Source: Verrucomicrobiota bacterium (GTDB taxonomy: Bacteria; Verrucomicrobiota; Verrucomicrobiia; Limisphaerales; VHDF01). Taken from it: a stretch of DNA of 33,122 bases. Under the pieces are notes generated by a model, which was not told where the DNA came from, made no database searches, and worked only from the letters and a program-made list of their open reading frames with translations. This document shows, piece by piece, positions 5,735 through 33,122 of this stretch; position 1 is the stretch's first letter; each line of letters starts with the position of its first letter. The translations under genes and the position numbers were made by a program. Location: NCBI GenBank assembly GCA_016871495.1, contig VHDF01000049.1, forward strand, positions 1 to 33,122, read 5' to 3'.

Positions 5735-6200
5735 ATGAAGCCCGTCTTCAGACCCAATTCGGAAAAACCAGGCCGCTGGCTACGATTCACTCTCGCAGCC
5801 GCCCTGGCCATCGGCGAGACGGACAACGACCGCGCCCGCGAAGCTTTGCGATGGCTGGTGCGCCTCGTCTTCCTGGCCCTGCCGGAAAACGGACGCCTTC
5901 GGGCCGGCTTTGGCGAGTTCGCTCGGAATGTTCGGGCAGACGCTGGAGGGTAACGAAAGGCGCGAGGAGGCGCTGGCCAGTTTTGCCGAAGGCGTGCGCT
6001 TGCTCACACCACATTTTCAGGCGCTCCCTGCCGCCCATGCGTCGCTCATGCAGGGGCTGGCGCAGGAGTATCAGCGCCTGGCGCAAGCCCTCAACCAGCC
6101 GACGGACGAGGCGCTGCTCGCGCCGGTGGCCGCAATCTTCGCGCGGCTGCAAGCGCCGGCTCCAGCCGGGACGACGAACCAATCGCCACCGTCGACTTGA
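5735..6200 (+). pseudogene. Remnant of a TPR-repeat protein, frameshifted
   Basis: Two overlapping frames together resemble the C-terminal end of a long TPR protein. Frame 2 gives NDRAREALRWLVRLVFLALPEN up to about 5890, and frame 3 continues from 5892 with DAFGPALASSLGMFGQTLEG, then NERREEALASFAEGVRLLTP and a short C-terminal helix pair to the stop at 6198-6200. One extra base near 5891 accounts for the break. The join LPEN/DAFGPALA fits the PDAFxPxLAxSLxxLG spacing of such TPR proteins. No N-terminal domain or credible start remains. It could instead be a small expressed ORF from the TTG at 5910, but nothing supports that. Confidence 0.5.
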
Positions 6201-6320: not shown

Positions 6321-8384
6321 TCAACTCGGCTGCTTCGATTTCGCGCGCTTTGGTTTGTCTTTGGACGCCAGGGCCTCAGGACGGGCGGTGAGGCGTTCCA
6401 GCAGCGCGAGCGCAATGGTCTGGCGCTCTGGAGCGAGGGTTTGGAGATGCTCGCGGTGATCGTGGGCCACGAAGGCGTCGCGCACGGTTTGGAAGGGCGT
6501 GGCGTCCGGCAGCGAATCCAGCAGGGCCAGTGCCTCGGCGGGCTTGGTCAGACGGGCCAGACGGAGCAAGCCGTCCACGGTGAAGTCAAAGACGTCGTCG
6601 GCACTGGGATGGGTGAGGCACCACGCGACCAGGGAGGGCAGCAAGCCCTGCCAGTCCCCGGCTTGTTCGCCGCAAACCTGAAGGAACATGTGCCGTGCGA
6701 AGCCATGGCCCGGCTTGAGTGAAACCCCTCTCGTGGCGCAGGCACGGGCTTCCGCGTGGTGGGTGCCGGTCCGGCTGAGGATCTGAGCCAGGCCAGTCCA
6801 CGGAGACGCATATTCCGGATCGAGTTCGATGGCCTTGCGGTAGGCGGACTCCGCGACGGTCCAAGCCTCCTTTTCCTTGAAGAAATCCGCGAGTTGACAC
6901 CACCAGCTTGCCTGATCCGGCTTAAAGCCGAGCTTCTTCCTCAGTGCCTCTGGCATCGTCTTGCAGAAACCAATGATTCCGACCTTGGGCAGATCCGCCT
7001 GCGCCCGCTCGGGATTGAACCATTCGTCCAGCGATTCCCAGGCGGTGCTTTCCCATCCTTCGCGCAACGTGGCAGACATGAGTGCCCGGCGGTCCTCGCC
7101 TTCTTCCGCGCGGGCCAGCGCGCTGTGCAGCACCGAGTGGGCGTCGCGCCGTCCTTCGGGGCCGCACTCGGCACCTTCCCGCGCCGCCCGGGCCAGCACG
7201 TCCGCCGAGGCCCGGTCGGGAAACACAATGCGGACAAGGGCCACGAACCAGTCCAGCCGGTTCCGGGCCGCGCGTCCGTGGCGCATGAGGTAGTGGATGT
7301 TCGAGAAGCGGTCGGCGAGCAGGTAGGTCTTGCGCTTGGGCCCGCCCGCCGCTTCGCGCAGGAAGCCGGCCTTGACCAGCGTGCGAAGCTGGGCGCTCAC
7401 CTGATTGCTGGGCAACCGGGTGGCGGTGGCCAGCGAGGCGACCTCGACCGGATCCCAGGCCAGCGCGACGGCGTCGAAGATGCGCTGCTGCTGCACCGGG
7501 AGCGCGTCCACGATGGCCTTGAAGTAGGGAGTGAACTCATCCATCAGCCGCTGCAGATCGGCGCGGATGTCGCCGCGCAACCCTTCGACCAGCAGACGGT
7601 AGAAGGTCTTCACCAGCCGGGGATTGCCGCCGGTGAGCAGATGCAGGGCGCGCACGGTGCCCTGCCGTTCCTGCAAGGTCTTCTCGATGGAGGCGTCGCC
7701 CCGGCTCTTCGCCAGAGCGAGCAGGCAGGTTTCCATTTCCTCGGCCGTCAGCGGGCGGAGTTCAAAGCAGCGGAAAAAGTCGTAGAACGGCTGGTCCACT
7801 GAGGTGATTTCATCGAAGTAACGCGTGGCCGCGCCGATGACCATGACGCGTGAATCTTGCATGAGGAAGGCGCGCAGCCTATGGAGCGGTGCGGGATCGG
7901 AGATGGAGCTGAGCACGTCGTTGAGGTTGTCGACGAGGAGCAAGGCCCGGCGACGGCCACGATCCACCAGTTGGAGGAAGGTTTCGCGGGCGCGGTCTTC
8001 GATGTCAGACGATGCCGTGACGAGAAGTTGATCAGCCAGCGTGCCGGGGGAATGGGTGACGTGTTCCCATTGGCGGAGGCATTCGAGCCAGAAGTCCGCC
8101 AAGTCGCCCACACGGCGACTTTCCTCATCGAACACGACGGGCTGCCAGCCCGATGCGAGGGTCGTGTCGCGGTTGACCCGATGCGCGATGGCCCAGAGCG
8201 TGGTGGTCTTGCCCATGCCGCGCGCACCGATGAGCAGGCAGTGTTGCTGGGGCTGTCCGGGCTTGTTGCCGCGGACAATGCCGAGGATCGTCTCCAGCAT
8301 GGGCTGGCGGGCGGTGAACTGTGCGAGCAGATCTTCCGGCGCCAGCAGGGCTGGATTATAGAGGGCGAAAGCTTGTTGAGCCAT
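6321..8384 (-). CDS. AAA ATPase with winged helix and C-terminal TPRs
   Basis: 687-residue multidomain NTPase from the ATG at 8384, 4 nt after the stop of the upstream ATPase frame; a 40-codon longer reading to 8504 overlaps that gene and is rejected. An AAA_16/ATPase_2-like P-loop lies at 53-60 (GARGMGKT), Walker B at 147-153 (ALLLVDN), and a sensor-like strand VMVIGAATRYFDEI at 180-193. A winged-helix region spans about 300-345 (VEVASLATATRLPSNQVSAQ). From about 490 there are TPR-like helices (AESAYRKAIELDPEYASPWT). The C-terminus is lysine-rich. This architecture resembles STAND-like signalling ATPases, but function and partner are unknown. It lies in an accessory stretch beside another, broken ATPase and a TPR remnant, which suggests horizontal spread. 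Confidence 0.8.
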   Translation of the reverse strand: MAQQAFALYNPALLAPEDLLAQFTARQPMLETILGIVRGNKPGQPQQHCLLIGARGMGKTTTLWAIAHRVNRDTTLASGWQPVVFDEESRRVGDLADFWLECLRQWEHVTHSPGTLADQLLVTASSDIEDRARETFLQLVDRGRRRALLLVDNLNDVLSSISDPAPLHRLRAFLMQDSRVMVIGAATRYFDEITSVDQPFYDFFRCFELRPLTAEEMETCLLALAKSRGDASIEKTLQERQGTVRALHLLTGGNPRLVKTFYRLLVEGLRGDIRADLQRLMDEFTPYFKAIVDALPVQQQRIFDAVALAWDPVEVASLATATRLPSNQVSAQLRTLVKAGFLREAAGGPKRKTYLLADRFSNIHYLMRHGRAARNRLDWFVALVRIVFPDRASADVLARAAREGAECGPEGRRDAHSVLHSALARAEEGEDRRALMSATLREGWESTAWESLDEWFNPERAQADLPKVGIIGFCKTMPEALRKKLGFKPDQASWWCQLADFFKEKEAWTVAESAYRKAIELDPEYASPWTGLAQILSRTGTHHAEARACATRGVSLKPGHGFARHMFLQVCGEQAGDWQGLLPSLVAWCLTHPSADDVFDFTVDGLLRLARLTKPAEALALLDSLPDATPFQTVRDAFVAHDHREHLQTLAPERQTIALALLERLTARPEALASKDKPKRAKSKQPS

Positions 8385-8388
8385 GGGG

Positions 8389-9530
8389 TCAGTCGGTTTT
8401 GCGGAGCCAGAAATCCCGGAGGATGTTCGAACCAAAGCGAGTGCGGCGTGGAGCAGCGGTTTCTTGAAGCACGTAGCCGTCGTGTTTGAGCGTGTCGAGC
8501 ACATGGTCGAGCTCCTCGATGCCTTCAGTCGTCTGACTTAACGCGGGTTCGAGTTTCTGGTGAAGAAGGTCAAAGTCCTCCCGGCTCAACCCGTTGTTGG
8601 AGCGGCAGACGGCTTTGAGAATCTCACGGCCCAGGCGGCGCTCGCTGTCGGAAAAGATGTCCTTCAACCGGTTGAACATGCCGTCGCAATACTGGTTGCG
8701 GCTGCCGTTGACTAACCGGTTGCGATAGATCGCTTCGAGCTCGGCCGTGGTGGGAGGTTTCTGGAATTCGCCGTCTTGGATTTCGGAGATGAAGAGTTGC
8801 AGCAAGATCGGCCAGTTCGCGCCGAGCAGGCTGAGGATTTTCTTCTGGCCCGGTTTACTGAGGGGGACGTCGTTGTGCTCCGCAAGGGTGGCCAGCAAGC
8901 CCAGCGCTTCCTCGTCGGTCAGCGGCGGAATTTCATGCGCGTCAAACTCGTTGATCGACGCAGCCAAACCAAGTTTCCGCACCACTCCCTTCAAGCCAAT
9001 GGAGCCAGTCACCATAAACCGGACCTTTTTCCCTTCAGTTCATTCCGCGCGGCGCGAAACCAGTTGAGCACCGCTTCGACTTCGTCTCGGGATCGCTGCT
9101 TGGCAACGAGCTTGAGGAAGGTCGGAAACTCATCGGCGGGCTTTCGCCATCGGCAACCCTCGCTCGGAGCCCTCAACTCAACACTGGCCACACCGGGGAC
9201 TTGAAGCTTCTCAATTCCAGACAGCAAAGCGGCGACTTTCCCTGTTGCTCGCGCGGCCCAACCCTTCGGTTGCTGCAAGGCTTCTCTGAGCTTGTCCAGC
9301 ATGGCGGCCAGCCAGCCCTCGACGCTGTCATGCTTTTCCAAGTTCAGCAGGATCGGCAGGAAGTGGCCCGGGTTTGCCTCAATCTCTTCAAGGCACGAGG
9401 TCTTTCCCGTCCGGCGCGGGCCAAGGAAGGCCACGTTGTCCCGCGCGAGCGCACGGCGGAGTTTCGCGATCAGGGCGGGGCGTTTGTAGAAGTTTTCTCC
9501 CGTTGCCGGAGATCCGATTCGCAGTTCCAT
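8389..9530 (-). pseudogene. AAA ATPase split by a -1 frameshift
   Basis: One ATPase reading spread over two frames. The first (9530-9009) carries the P-loop GPRRTGKTS at 37-45; the second (9015-8389) carries the downstream part starting VTGSIGLKGVVRKLGL and a C-terminal helical region. Translating across the break with a one-base back-step gives NELKGKKVRFMVTGSIGLKG, which matches how this family reads. The break lies at G GGA AAA (about 9026-9033), a canonical -1 slippery heptamer, and the first frame stops six codons later; its TGA overlaps the ATG of the second frame. The segment where Walker B is expected (RKPADEFPTFL, about 129-139) lacks the hydrophobic strand before DE, suggesting an internal deletion. 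Decay is more likely than programmed slippage, but both remain open. Confidence 0.7.
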
Positions 9531-26744: not shown

Positions 26745-28199
26745 TCAAACGTCCTCGGCGGAAACCTTCGCGGCGCTTTCAAATCGTGTGTAGCCTTTCA
26801 AAAACGTCAAGTGAACATCGCCCGTGGGTCCATTTCGTTGCTTGGCAATCAGCAAGTTGACGGGGACCGCATCGGACTCAGCCTGTGTTGCGGGCTCATC
26901 TTCCTCACCGCGGCTGGGTTTGTAAAGTAGAGCGACAAGGTCGGCATCTTGTTCAATCGCGCCCGATTCGCGCAAGTCGGAGAGCCGGGGCTTGCGATCC
27001 TTGTCTTTCTCCAATTCCCGGTTCAACTGGCTCAAGACCACGACAGGCACGTTGAGTTCCTTGGCCAAAGCCTTGACCCCGTTGGAGATATCGGCGATTT
27101 CCTGCTGGCGGTTTTCGGCGCGCCTCGCCGTCGAATGCAGCAATTGGAGGTAGTCCACCACCAACAATTTGATGCCGTGTTGCTGGGCCATCCGCCGGGC
27201 GCGGGCGCGCATTTGCAAAATAGAGAGCCCTGGTGTGTCGTCGATGATGAGCGGTGCCCCCGCCAGTTTGCCCGCTGCCAGAGTGAGTTTGGGGAAATCG
27301 CGCTCGGCCAGAAAACCGTCGCGAATGTCCCGCAAGTTCACCCTGGCGCGCGAACAGAGCATGCGCAAGACGAGGGACTCCGCCGTCATTTCCAAACTGA
27401 ACACACCCACCGGCAGCTTTTGATCCACGGCCACGGCCTCCGCGATGTTCATGGCCAAGGAGGTCTTGCCCATGCTGGGCCGGGCCGCGATGACGATCAT
27501 TTCGCCGCCATGCAGCCCGCTCGTCATTTTGTCCAGATCCGGAAATCCCGTCCCAATGCCGGTCAACATCCCCTGACGCTGATGAAAATCCTCGATGGTG
27601 CTGATGGCCTTGTGAACCAATTCCTTGATGCCGCTCGCTCCGGCCTCCGTGCGCTCCTCACTGATGCGCAAAATATCCCGTTCGACCTCGTCCAGCAGGG
27701 CGTCCACCTCGCCCTCATGTTCATGGACCCGCCCGATCACGTCGGAGCAGGTGCGGATCATTTTGCGGAGGACGGATTTCTCGCGGAGAATTTCGAGATA
27801 ATAAGGCAGGTGCGCGGCGGATGGAACGGCATCGACCAGCGCGGCGACATAGGCCAAGCCTCCGACCGCTTCGAGCTGGTTCTTGTCTTTCAGATGCTGC
27901 GGCACCGTGATGAGGTCAATGGCGAGCTTGGCGTCGTACATTTCGACGAGCGTCTCGTAGAGCGCACGGTGGCGGAGATCATAGAAGGATTCGGAGCCCG
28001 CTCTGAGTTTCTCGATGCAAAGTCCGATGTTTTCGGAAGGCGAGAGCAGGATGCAACCGAGCACGCCTTGCTCAGCCTCGTTGGAATGCGGGGGAAGGCG
28101 GTCGAGTCGCTGACCGGCGGCGGAGCTTGGGCGGACGCGCTTGGTTTTCTTCAGGTCGGCGGGAGGCGCGCCGGCGCCGGCTTCGGGCGTGTCGATCAT
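26745..28199 (-). CDS. dnaB: Replicative DNA helicase DnaB
   Basis: 484-residue hexameric 5'-3' helicase. The N-terminal DnaB-N domain runs from about 35 (PPHSNEAEQGVLGCILL) to 140 (LPYYLEILREKSVLRKMI). The RecA-like C-terminal domain starts with GIGTGFPDLDKMTSGLHGG, Walker A ARPSMGKTSLA, then GVFSLEMTAESLVLRML (motif H1a), Walker B LLVVDYLQLL, LSQLNRELEKD and the DLRESGAIEQDADLV arginine-finger region, and ends with KQRNGPTG. No intein was seen. The sequence lacks a clear Shine-Dalgarno. bamA follows 19 nt later, an uncommon but plausible partner. Confidence 0.97.
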   Translation of the reverse strand: MIDTPEAGAGAPPADLKKTKRVRPSSAAGQRLDRLPPHSNEAEQGVLGCILLSPSENIGLCIEKLRAGSESFYDLRHRALYETLVEMYDAKLAIDLITVPQHLKDKNQLEAVGGLAYVAALVDAVPSAAHLPYYLEILREKSVLRKMIRTCSDVIGRVHEHEGEVDALLDEVERDILRISEERTEAGASGIKELVHKAISTIEDFHQRQGMLTGIGTGFPDLDKMTSGLHGGEMIVIAARPSMGKTSLAMNIAEAVAVDQKLPVGVFSLEMTAESLVLRMLCSRARVNLRDIRDGFLAERDFPKLTLAAGKLAGAPLIIDDTPGLSILQMRARARRMAQQHGIKLLVVDYLQLLHSTARRAENRQQEIADISNGVKALAKELNVPVVVLSQLNRELEKDKDRKPRLSDLRESGAIEQDADLVALLYKPSRGEEDEPATQAESDAVPVNLLIAKQRNGPTGDVHLTFLKGYTRFESAAKVSAEDV

Positions 28200-28671: not shown

Positions 28672-29448
28672 TCAACGGCCGCATTCCATTTCGGAAAAAA
28701 GCCGGATGCTTTTGAGCCGGATCGCACTCACCGGACTGGCGCCGGACGGCGCGGCCAGACAACCCCGGTAGCCTTCATCCGGGAGGAAGGGATGGAGGGT
28801 CCAATTCGCAGCAGGTTCTTGCGCCCCGCTGATCGCCATCAAGCGGCTGGTGCCATCGTGATCCACACGGGTCTCGATCCTCTCCGGCGCGAGCGAAAGT
28901 CCCGTTCCCAGGGCCTTGAGCACGCTTTCCTTGCGTGTCCAGCATTCGAAAAACGCGGCTTCCCGGCCGTGGGGTGGAATGCCGGCAATCCATTCCCGCT
29001 CGTGAAGCGTGAAAAAACGCTCCATGACGCCATTCGCGTCATGCATGGGGCGAATTCTTTCCACATCCACCCCGACTTCGCCAACTCGCGTGAACGCAAG
29101 GGCGCCAAACGCTCCAGAATGCGAAACATTGAAGTACCATGGAGTGTCCGGACAAGAGAGTTTCCCGTGCGGTCCGGCCTTGAATTCGACTTCAGCCGGT
29201 TCGCGGCGAATCAAACGGGCCGCGAGCATTCTCAACCAGGCGCGGGTTTGAACGAATCGAACCCGGTCTTCCCGCGCGCGAAAGCGCCCGGCCCGCTCGA
29301 TTTCCAACGCATCGAGAACGCGCAGAAAGGGTGCCGGACTCTCCACCGACAAGTCGAATTCGAGCAAAAGCACCCTGGCTTCCATGGCGGTGGACTCGAA
29401 GGCCGCCGACCAGCTTGCGCCAGGGTCAAGCACTTGGACCGGGATCAC
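28672..29448 (-). CDS. Sfp-type 4'-phosphopantetheinyl transferase
   Basis: Transfers the phosphopantetheine arm of CoA onto a carrier-domain serine. 258 residues from GTG 29448, 3 nt after the stop of the synthetase gene; the ATG at 29385 (MEARVLLLEFDLS) gives 237 residues and matches family N-termini better. Diagnostic motifs: FNVSHSGAFGALAF, VGVDVERIRP (magnesium-binding Asp/Glu), and FFECWTRKESVLKALGTGLS. Length suits the Sfp/HetI class rather than AcpS. Its position directly behind a carrier-domain protein strongly suggests that it activates that protein. Confidence 0.93.
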   Translation of the reverse strand: MIPVQVLDPGASWSAAFESTAMEARVLLLEFDLSVESPAPFLRVLDALEIERAGRFRAREDRVRFVQTRAWLRMLAARLIRREPAEVEFKAGPHGKLSCPDTPWYFNVSHSGAFGALAFTRVGEVGVDVERIRPMHDANGVMERFFTLHEREWIAGIPPHGREAAFFECWTRKESVLKALGTGLSLAPERIETRVDHDGTSRLMAISGAQEPAANWTLHPFLPDEGYRGCLAAPSGASPVSAIRLKSIRLFSEMECGR

Positions 29449-29451
29449 AAA

Positions 29452-32400
29452 TCAAAACAGGCGCACGCGGGCGTAGGAAATGGTTGAACTCTCCCCGGCG
29501 CGATGCCCAAGCATGTCGAGAAAACGGGACGGCTTGCTTCCGGCTCGAGGCGTGGCCGTGAAATAGCTGGTAAAAGGCTGGGCGAAGGGAATCGTGACGG
29601 GAGGCGAAAACGCGGCGTGGGCCCCGATTTCATGAACCCGATTCTCAGAGAGCGCGACACCGTTCGGTGCTTTTCCCGACCAATAATAGGCCACAAACAA
29701 CCGGCGGCCGGGCGCCTCATGAAATCGCGCCGCGGAAGCCACCGGTCCGGGAGCCTGCTCGGTGGACTCAACCAGCGTGGCGCGCCGGACCCAGCGGCCA
29801 TTCCGTAACACGCCGTAATAGAGACCGTGAGATTGCCTGGCCTGAGGAAAGAACGTCTCCCGCAATCGCTCGTCGATGGCGCGCTCCGTCCAGAGCAGAT
29901 GAATCTCGCCCCGCGCTCCAACCCATAAATCGCACGGCCAGACAAAACCGCCGGTTTTGTCGCGACTGGCGATTTCGATCCAATCCGCGAAAGGCCTTTT
30001 CGCAGCATCCGGAGTCCAGGTGTAAAAGAGCCGGCGAAAATCGTAATCCCAAGCTTGTCCCGTCAGCTTTCGCTTGTGTTCACGCCAGGCTTGATAGGGC
30101 TCGAGCACGTCACTGACCCCGAAGAAATGCACGGCGCGTCCGGCGATCGCCACATTGGGATAACAGAGTCGAATGGGTTGAGGGGTGTCATACTCGGCAC
30201 CCCAGGGCCATCGGAGCTGGCCTTGGGCGGTGCGCGATCCGTCCACCAGCGTCCATTCGGCATGTGTGTAACCGATGTTTTGGAACAGGATGTAGCTGTC
30301 GGTGAAAGGATCGGCGGCAAAACTCCGGTAGGAATGTTCCGTAAAACGGGGCTGGCCTTGCCAGCGAGGCTGCCATCGCGAGTCCGGCTCTCCCGACCCC
30401 TCCACCGGGAATCGATAGATCTCCGGGAGCGCGGGGCCTCCATTCGGCTCCGGCGGCCTGCCTAACGTGGGATTGGCTGACAACAACACGTTGCGGTTTT
30501 TCACCAGGACCAGGGGTGAAGGTTCGCGGGTCCTTCCGACGGGATCGGCCCAACGCTTCTGCCAACCCTGCTGATCGCGTTCGAGAAAGACCCAACGGCA
30601 GTTGTTTAATGGAGGTACGCCTTCGAGCGTTTCCAATCCGGCGGCAAAGACTTTGTCACCGGCTCGCACCAGGCTCGTGGAACCGGCACACCACATCGGC
30701 CCCGCCCCGTTTTGCGCAGGCTTGAACGCGTAAACGGTTTCCTCCACCTCCACTTTCGGCTGGAGGGGGTCCGAGGCGCCCTCCGCGCGGGTTGCGAATC
30801 CCAGGAGCACCGCAACCAGGAGGGCCGCCGGCGTGCCCATGAGTTTCGGGTGCGAAGGGAATCCTTCGTAAGTCAAACCCGGCTGCAAGCGTTCGTGCTT
30901 CATGACCACACTGTGGGGCAGAACCCGGGCGCCCGCTCCCACCTCAACGCCATACAACAGGAGCGCATTGCGCCCGATGCTGGCCCCGGCCCGGATCACA
31001 ATGGGATCCATTTTCAAAACACGGTCTTCGAAAGTGTGGGCTTGAAACAATCCATCCACCGTCGCGCCGTCTTCAAAAACGAACATGTCGGGATCCGCCA
31101 TGTCGTGGGCAAATTCTCCCCCAAAGACGACTCCCCGTCCAACCTTCATTCCGGTGCTTCGGAGCAGCCAGGGCAACAACGGGGTGCCTTCCACCAAGGC
31201 CACCAGGTCCACCGCAAGCAGGCTCCAACTCATGCACACAAAGTCCCATCGGCTCGCCCAACACGACCAAAGCGGGTGGAGTTGCGGGCGCACTTTTCCG
31301 AGCAACACCCATTTCAAAGCCAGCGCGGCCAGGAACGGCATCGCGATGGCCGCCAGTCCGAGCCAGGGCAGCCACAATCCGAACCACACGCTGGAAGGAA
31401 GCATGGAACTTCCCCAGGCCGCCCCCGCAATCCAAACTCCGCCCGCTGCCATCAGGGGAAGAGGCAGCGCGAAGCGGGCGCATTCCCAGAAGACACGGGA
31501 GCAAACCTTCACGAGAGAAGGGTGATGGGTGTCGCGCTGGTCGAATCCATGAACCTCCCGCCTCGGCAACGCAAAGGGAGGATCTCCGAACCAATCCTGG
31601 CCAGGTTTCAGATCGGCTCGTCCCGCCACCGTGCAAATACCAACCAGGATCCCCCCCGGCACGCTCTCGCCCAACCCCAACACGGCTCCATTTCCAATAA
31701 AGCTGTGGGAACCGATGCTCACCTTGTGCAGAAGGACTTCGCCCCTGGAGATACGGGGTCCGCCCGCATAAATGCCGTCGGCGCAAAACGCGTAGTCGCC
31801 GATCTCCAGCAGTTCCGGAAGACAATCGATCAAACCGCTCAATTCCGTGCCGCGCCCTACCCGCGCGCCCGCCAGACGCAGCCACCAAGGCCAGAAAAGT
31901 GTGCCATAAAGCCAGTCCCCGGCCCACTTGCACACGCCCGTCTTGATCCAGACTCGAATGAACTCGAAACTCCAGCGCGAGATCCTGCCCTCGGCAACGC
32001 GACCCAAAAGTCGAAGCAGGCCGGCCGCCAGCAACCAGGTCAACGGCACCGCGAGGATCTCCAAGACGGCCAGCCGGGCAAAGGACTGCCACGAGAAAGA
32101 AAGATTCCCGAACGAGGTGGCGCTCCCGAGACCCACCTCGTAACCCCAGACCAGCAGAGCGAGCTCGACCGGCAATGCCAGCACCCCAAACACCCCGGTA
32201 ACCGCAAGCAGGGTCAGCAATCCATGGAGGCGCGGAGATCGGATTCCGGCCGAACCCTTTGAGCCATCCCTCCACGTCGAATGCCCGACCGGCCGCGCGG
32301 GGACCCCGCGCCAACACTCGCCGGCCGGCACATGAGTTCCAGGCTCCAGCGACGCCATGGCTTCAAGCGTCGCACCAGATTCCAGATGACAACGGGGTCC

Positions 32401-33122
32401 GATTCCACCGTGCAGTTCCACGGTCGCGGCGTCGTCAACGCGAACGGGAGCAAACCGGATGGTGCGAAACTCCAGCTCCATCAATCGGAGGCTGGCGTCC
32501 TGGTTCAGGGTCACGTCGTTGCCCAAGTCCAGAAGATCCCAACCGCCGTGGGAAAGATTAACCCCGCGGTGGATGTGAACGCGCTCGCCCACTCGCGCGC
32601 CCAGGGCGCGCAGCGCGTCACAGGCAAATTCAGTACCCGCCAGCAAATTCCATGGAATCGAGCGAGCGACCTGGTGGACGATCCAGTGCCGCAAATACAA
32701 ACTCCCATAAACAGGCGCTTCACCCTCTTGATACCGCCCGATCAAGCAACGTTTGACGGCTGCGGTGAACACCACGAAAAACGGAGTCGCCAGCCACAGA
32801 ACGGCTATGGCCATGGGGGCGAACGTCAGCACCAGCCCCGGCCAACCCATCCAGGCGTGAAGCCGAGGCAGGAGTTCCCAGCCCACAAGGTAACTCGCCG
32901 CGCCCGTCACCGCTAACAGCACGAAGACGAAACCACCTTGCACAAGTGTGGCGATCCCCATGGATCCCAAAGTCGCTGGCTCACGTTCTTCGATCATGGG
33001 CGCCGCCCGCCCCGTCTCCATCCGCTGCCCGATCCGCTCCAGGGTGCGGCCTTCGTAAACGTCTCGGACCGAGAGCGTCGATCGAGCATCCCAGTGACGA
33101 ACCCTCGAGACCAAAAGGGCCG
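29452..33122 (-). CDS. Pls/PosA-like synthetase C-terminus fused to exported propeller-like domain (5'-truncated)
   Basis: The frame is open to the window end, so the N-terminal part, expected to be an adenylation domain and most of the carrier domain, lies outside. Counting from the TTG at 33114, residues 1-33 are the last carrier helix (TLSVRDVYEGRTLERIGQRM). Then come three soluble left-handed-helix-like units (about 168-275, 412-520, 652-757) separated by hydrophobic pairs at about 56-80/92-120, 298-325/347-371 and 547-570/577-605: six membrane segments, the plan of epsilon-poly-lysine synthetase (A-T-TM-C1-C2-C3). This part ends at EGFPSHPKL. The frame continues without a stop from Met759 into a signal-peptide-like segment (LLVAVLLGFATRAEGA) and a ~440-residue Trp-rich, sialidase/BNR-like exported domain. 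The product is unknown. A phosphopantetheinyl transferase follows 3 nt later. Confidence 0.82.
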   Translation of the reverse strand, partial: ALLVSRVRHWDARSTLSVRDVYEGRTLERIGQRMETGRAAPMIEEREPATLGSMGIATLVQGGFVFVLLAVTGAASYLVGWELLPRLHAWMGWPGLVLTFAPMAIAVLWLATPFFVVFTAAVKRCLIGRYQEGEAPVYGSLYLRHWIVHQVARSIPWNLLAGTEFACDALRALGARVGERVHIHRGVNLSHGGWDLLDLGNDVTLNQDASLRLMELEFRTIRFAPVRVDDAATVELHGGIGPRCHLESGATLEAMASLEPGTHVPAGECWRGVPARPVGHSTWRDGSKGSAGIRSPRLHGLLTLLAVTGVFGVLALPVELALLVWGYEVGLGSATSFGNLSFSWQSFARLAVLEILAVPLTWLLAAGLLRLLGRVAEGRISRWSFEFIRVWIKTGVCKWAGDWLYGTLFWPWWLRLAGARVGRGTELSGLIDCLPELLEIGDYAFCADGIYAGGPRISRGEVLLHKVSIGSHSFIGNGAVLGLGESVPGGILVGICTVAGRADLKPGQDWFGDPPFALPRREVHGFDQRDTHHPSLVKVCSRVFWECARFALPLPLMAAGGVWIAGAAWGSSMLPSSVWFGLWLPWLGLAAIAMPFLAALALKWVLLGKVRPQLHPLWSCWASRWDFVCMSWSLLAVDLVALVEGTPLLPWLLRSTGMKVGRGVVFGGEFAHDMADPDMFVFEDGATVDGLFQAHTFEDRVLKMDPIVIRAGASIGRNALLLYGVEVGAGARVLPHSVVMKHERLQPGLTYEGFPSHPKLMGTPAALLVAVLLGFATRAEGASDPLQPKVEVEETVYAFKPAQNGAGPMWCAGSTSLVRAGDKVFAAGLETLEGVPPLNNCRWVFLERDQQGWQKRWADPVGRTREPSPLVLVKNRNVLLSANPTLGRPPEPNGGPALPEIYRFPVEGSGEPDSRWQPRWQGQPRFTEHSYRSFAADPFTDSYILFQNIGYTHAEWTLVDGSRTAQGQLRWPWGAEYDTPQPIRLCYPNVAIAGRAVHFFGVSDVLEPYQAWREHKRKLTGQAWDYDFRRLFYTWTPDAAKRPFADWIEIASRDKTGGFVWPCDLWVGARGEIHLLWTERAIDERLRETFFPQARQSHGLYYGVLRNGRWVRRATLVESTEQAPGPVASAARFHEAPGRRLFVAYYWSGKAPNGVALSENRVHEIGAHAAFSPPVTIPFAQPFTSYFTATPRAGSKPSRFLDMLGHRAGESSTISYARVRLF

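Follow-up and report, generated by a model that had tools for sequence, protein, structure and literature searches.

The question raised by this locus is whether a membrane-bound synthetase of the Pls/PosA kind, the family that makes poly-amino acids, carries an exported domain of its own, or whether two neighbouring genes have run together. The window, by which we mean the whole analysed stretch of 33,122 nucleotides, comes from a draft genome assembly of 201 contigs. A single stop-free frame of 1222 codons runs through positions 33120..29452 of its minus strand and reaches the contig edge, confirming the open in-frame continuation from a synthetase into a second domain that the preliminary description of this sequence had reported; the window ends in the middle of a gene because the contig ends there. 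The first 127 bases of another contig of the same genome (C103:1-127) are identical to the last 127 bases of the window. When the two are joined, the frame starts at a GTG (C103:1940) and encodes a protein of 1827 residues, of which residues 1-1,365 form a complete Pls/PosA-type synthetase and the last 462 a complete secreted protein. The extension of the contig proposed in the preliminary description was thus achieved through the 127-base overlap, and it led to an AMP-binding domain. The features discussed below are as follows.

Contig C103, locus L003:128-1940, minus strand: adenylation and carrier parts of the synthetase (AMP-binding PF00501 on C103).
30841..33120, minus strand: C-terminal part of the synthetase, window-frame residues 1-760 (TIGR02353, homologues, 127-base contig join).
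30856..32901, minus strand: three membrane/left-handed-beta-helix units, the polymerisation region (TIGR02353 match).
30838..30850, minus strand: junction ...GFPSHPKL-M (EGFPSHPKL-M), without a stop (homologue tails and three-frame sequence).
30775..30840, minus strand: start Met and signal peptide of the propeller, MGTPAALLVAVLLGFATRAEGA (alignment with the start Met and signal peptides of stand-alone homologues).
29452..30774, minus strand: secreted beta-propeller domain, with its stop TGA at 29454-29452 (homologues, AlphaFold2, PDB matches).
28672..29448, minus strand: 4'-phosphopantetheinyl transferase (PPTase) gene (PF01648, 72 bits; AASDHPPT_N, 27 bits).

The identity of the first half as a Pls/PosA-like synthetase is well borne out. 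The joined N-terminal part holds an adenylation domain (AMP-binding PF00501, 233 bits) followed by its C-terminal subdomain, and inspection of the joined protein reveals the carrier motif DWGGDSMTA (core GGDS) after it. TIGR02353, the profile of the Pls/PosA NRPS terminal domain, covers window-frame residues 74-755 and aligns there almost from end to end (positions 12-694 of 695; 338 bits, E 1e-100). This score, 337.9 bits unrounded, falls short of the curated cut-off of 423.1 bits, as do the 362-422 bits of relatives from the same subclade, and for this reason we do not give the protein the strict equivalog name. Both PosA, the delta-poly-L-ornithine synthetase of Acinetobacter baumannii, and Pls, the epsilon-poly-L-lysine synthetase of Streptomyces, are described as having adenylation and carrier domains and a terminal region that comprises three helix pairs, six helices in all, and three left-handed beta-helix units (PMC10522769). 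Hydropathy of the window frame, with peaks at residues 54-72, 104-122, 300-318, 350-368 and 589-607, agrees in outline with this layout, five of the six helices exceeding the threshold used, and a Hexapep match (PF00132) lies at residues 707-739. The AlphaFold2 model of the synthetase and junction, built from a single sequence, reached a pLDDT of 40, at which the distance of the third unit from the membrane is unreadable. In contrast to PosA and Pls, the frame runs on for 462 residues past the third unit into the propeller.

The substrate code derived from the alignment, DSECYGGVTK, also supports this identity. Like PosA and Pls, the enzyme has Asp and Glu at code positions 1 and 3, the combination expected for a cationic amino acid, whereas position 2 is Ser instead of the Met of PosA. 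The same ten residues occur in 11 related synthetases of the same order (L036, L037, L077-L079, L082-L086, L094) and in a homopolymer synthetase of Bdellovibrionales, the adenylation domain of which activated L-arginine modestly and for which the available portion of the report mentions no additional C-terminal domain (PMC10522769). By analogy with this one published homologue, arginine is suggested as the substrate of the DSECYGGVTK clade. A SET-domain gene lies directly upstream of the synthetase (L003 on contig C103, 1950-2456, minus strand), and in nine related loci (L037, L078, L079, L082-L086, L094) such a gene abuts or overlaps the synthetase start. It is this gene, and not the propeller, that is the conserved partner of the synthetase; its product is possibly a methyltransferase for the polymer, or a partner of another kind. 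On the other side, the PPTase gene begins with a GTG 3 bases past the stop of the joined frame, and a PPTase match likewise sits just downstream of the synthetase at one further locus (L052); the adjacent enzyme plausibly activates the carrier of the synthetase. The next gene (26745-28199, minus strand) resembles, by eye, the replicative DNA helicase DnaB.

The second half proved to be an entire secreted protein. The segment MGTPAALLVAVLLGFATRAEGA follows the Met at 30840 (ATG, Met761) and precedes a 440-residue domain, so that a complete protein of 462 residues runs from this Met onward. Its signal-peptide segment has a hydropathy of 1.66 at residues 759-777, and candidate signal peptidase sites would lie after TRA or AEG in FATRAEGAS. 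The alignment with twenty homologues, 46-61% identical, begins at the start Met and takes in the signal peptide; relatives occur in Verrucomicrobiota, Planctomycetota, Hydrogenedentota, Armatimonadota and other taxa. They belong to an unnamed family of stand-alone secreted propellers (loci L096-L175) which share the length and signal peptide position of the window protein and, unlike it, are encoded by a separate gene unjoined to any synthetase. AlphaFold2, run with 41 sequences, predicted a beta-propeller with a pLDDT of 90; together with the aligned signal peptides, this upholds the signal-peptide-like helix and propeller-like domain of the preliminary description.

The function of the propeller has been approached through its fold. 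The PDB entries nearest to the model are 7esk, 5muk and 4irt (Z 26-28), and by these nearest folds the domain would be a propeller of the seven-bladed type. The rhamnose-glucuronate lyase FoRham1 (PL42, 7ESK) aligns along almost the full length of the domain (Z 27.6, 365 aligned residues, rmsd 3.7) and the GH145 protein BT3686 (5MUK) gives a Z of 26.7, with 10% identity to these two despite the common fold. Among the 41 propeller sequences, His169 and Arg269/270 never vary, and 40 of them have His193. This set resembles the His85/His105/Arg166 set described in PMC8377490, and may represent the same residues as the catalytic set of PL42, GH145, PL24 and PL25; its two histidines are 24 residues apart, a spacing similar to the 20-21 of the catalytic or neighbouring His in those families (PMC8377490). 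The Pfam search returned no family match for the window domain, BNR_4 being weakly matched in 3 of the 41 relatives, and the sole match in a profile search of solved structures was a weak one to a sialidase (E 0.18). Our best guess for this half is a secreted enzyme that acts on glycans, perhaps as a lyase. Diverged paralogues, each about 32% identical to the window protein, form a tandem pair in another genome (G627:C46:4758-7566). Broken or truncated copies in two more (L090 of G118, 7834-9241; L076 of G282, 5999-6163) show that the propeller gene decays in some genomes.

The proposal of a new functional architecture found no support among relatives. The whole frame was searched in 97 relatives and, at the levels of order, class and phylum, in 320, 384 and 387 genomes respectively, sets that partly overlap and in which the closest kinship is the same order; a stop-free match across both halves was found in the source genome only. 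Matches in other genomes are confined to one half, and the few that overrun the junction are weak and pass mostly through stop codons, as in one genome (G163) where the match extends to residue 819 via four stops. An apparent joined match in G282 (residues 727-826 across a TGA) turned out to be a truncated propeller remnant and not a synthetase-propeller pair. A contig scan with the whole frame as query found no relative, and one with the propeller alignment as query found 80 loci. No synthetase was detected near about 100 propeller loci (20 order-level neighbourhoods and 80 organism-named loci), within flanks of mostly 6-8 kb that are shorter at contig ends; some genomes, e.g., G110 and G329, contain both genes on different contigs. 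A literature search likewise found no synthetase of the Pls/PosA kind with an external domain. The relatives thus consistently encode the two halves apart, largely the very situation that the preliminary description had named as refuting a true fusion, and its own alternative, a stop lost between two genes, becomes the better reading.

We therefore favour, with moderate confidence, the explanation that two unrelated adjacent genes, one for the synthetase and one for the secreted propeller, were merged into one frame by a missing stop. This reading is favoured by the uniqueness of the fusion to the source genome among those searched, the early ends of the synthetase homologues and the stand-alone, unlinked state of the propeller homologues. 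Most likely the merger arose by accident, in this lineage or in the assembly, rather than as a two-part enzyme by design; as to its nature, either a gene merger private to the lineage or an assembly error is likely.

The junction itself bears on both possibilities. The synthetase homologues, 43-48% identical, match to about residue 757-759, and relatives stop 0 to about 20 residues past an EGxPTR-like motif, whereas the window synthetase has no chain end after the third unit; the single long frame exists because the stop between synthetase and propeller is missing. Strong homology supports both halves, with no more than a few residues left uncovered at the junction, which is more than chance would give, and the intact start Met and signal peptide at the join make it look like adjacent genes after stop loss. 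No Shine-Dalgarno-like motif precedes the propeller ATG and no Lys or Arg occurs at propeller residues 2-6. These absences give no strong sign of independent initiation at the ATG and fit a dependence of the propeller on the upstream frame, weakly, since only 31 of the 93 homologues carry such a motif and 66 of the 93 a basic residue. The other two frames have stops at -62 and -35 relative to the ATG and next at +182, with none between -35 and +182, so that a one-base indel would not restore the expected ending and a frameshift artefact is disfavoured; a single substitution could restore a stop at the junction. It is conceivable, if rather unlikely, that the stop exists in the organism and was lost from the draft assembly through a base error or strain mixing, the two genes being ordinary operon neighbours with the PPTase. 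The fragmented state of the assembly, the separation of the halves everywhere else searched and the presence of both in full, with the start Met of the propeller, are in keeping with such an error, but it would have to be a substitution precisely at the stop, given that an indel yields none near the expected end.

The propeller family does form true fusions elsewhere, and so a selected fusion in the window is not absurd. The architectures observed at other loci are listed here.

L156:1725-6674, plus strand: aspartyl protease and ankyrin repeats, then propeller.
L176:4240-7410, minus strand: amidohydrolase, then propeller.
L183:1574-4645, minus strand: amidohydrolase, then propeller.
L182:515-3214, minus strand: propeller, then an extra C-terminal region.

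The amidohydrolase-propeller fusion occurs in two genomes (L176, L183). Of eight long frames upstream of other propellers that were inspected as possible fusions, most read as non-coding GC-rich open frames, and two kinds were true fusions to exported enzymes. In the fusions at L156, L176 and L183 the propeller lacks a signal peptide of its own, while the window keeps it whole, together with its Met, as would be expected if a stop between neighbouring genes had been lost recently. An exported propeller attached to any partner with a cytoplasmic C-terminus needs a signal peptide, however, and its retention alone does not exclude a function. The external domain behind an additional membrane anchor put forward in the preliminary description is topologically possible, since with a cytoplasmic third unit the signal-like helix would bring the propeller to the outer side of the membrane, but a purposeful fusion is unsupported by the relatives. 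We consider it improbable that the synthetase has its own exported propeller, either left uncleaved behind a seventh membrane helix, where it would bind or trim the exported product or a surface glycan, or released from a polyprotein that signal peptidase would split into a synthetase in the membrane and a secreted enzyme acting on glycans, in fixed one-to-one amounts: the topology works on paper and the family is found fused to other exported enzymes, but the fusion is absent from all relatives searched, the two families are not neighbours at the loci examined, a Met that is still present and a signal peptide that looks cleavable speak for a recent join, and the nearest folds of the propeller act on glycans and not on poly-amino acids.

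Under the preferred reading of two genes merged by a missing stop, ribosomes would read through the synthetase into the propeller, and the signal peptide, although emerging only after a cytoplasmic domain, would enter the export machinery just as it does in the free protein. A cut by signal peptidase would then probably follow, leaving a free propeller and a synthetase with a short extra tail. The two would in this way end up as separate products, and the merger would be tolerated, probably without a special function. The amino acid activated by the synthetase would be a cationic one, as the code indicates; once loaded onto the carrier, which the adjacent PPTase would prime, it would be polymerised at the membrane. 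The propeller would act outside, on glycans.

The significance of the locus is mainly one of caution, in that a frame left open across two genes, each of them complete, can pass for a new multidomain enzyme. Should the join prove real and be translated, the locus would be a rare instance of an internal signal peptide that joins an NRPS-like enzyme of the cytoplasmic side and a secreted protein in one precursor. Beyond the junction, the analysis points to a Limisphaerales-related clade of homopolymer synthetases with the code DSECYGGVTK and a conserved SET-domain partner, the polymer of which could be made and identified.
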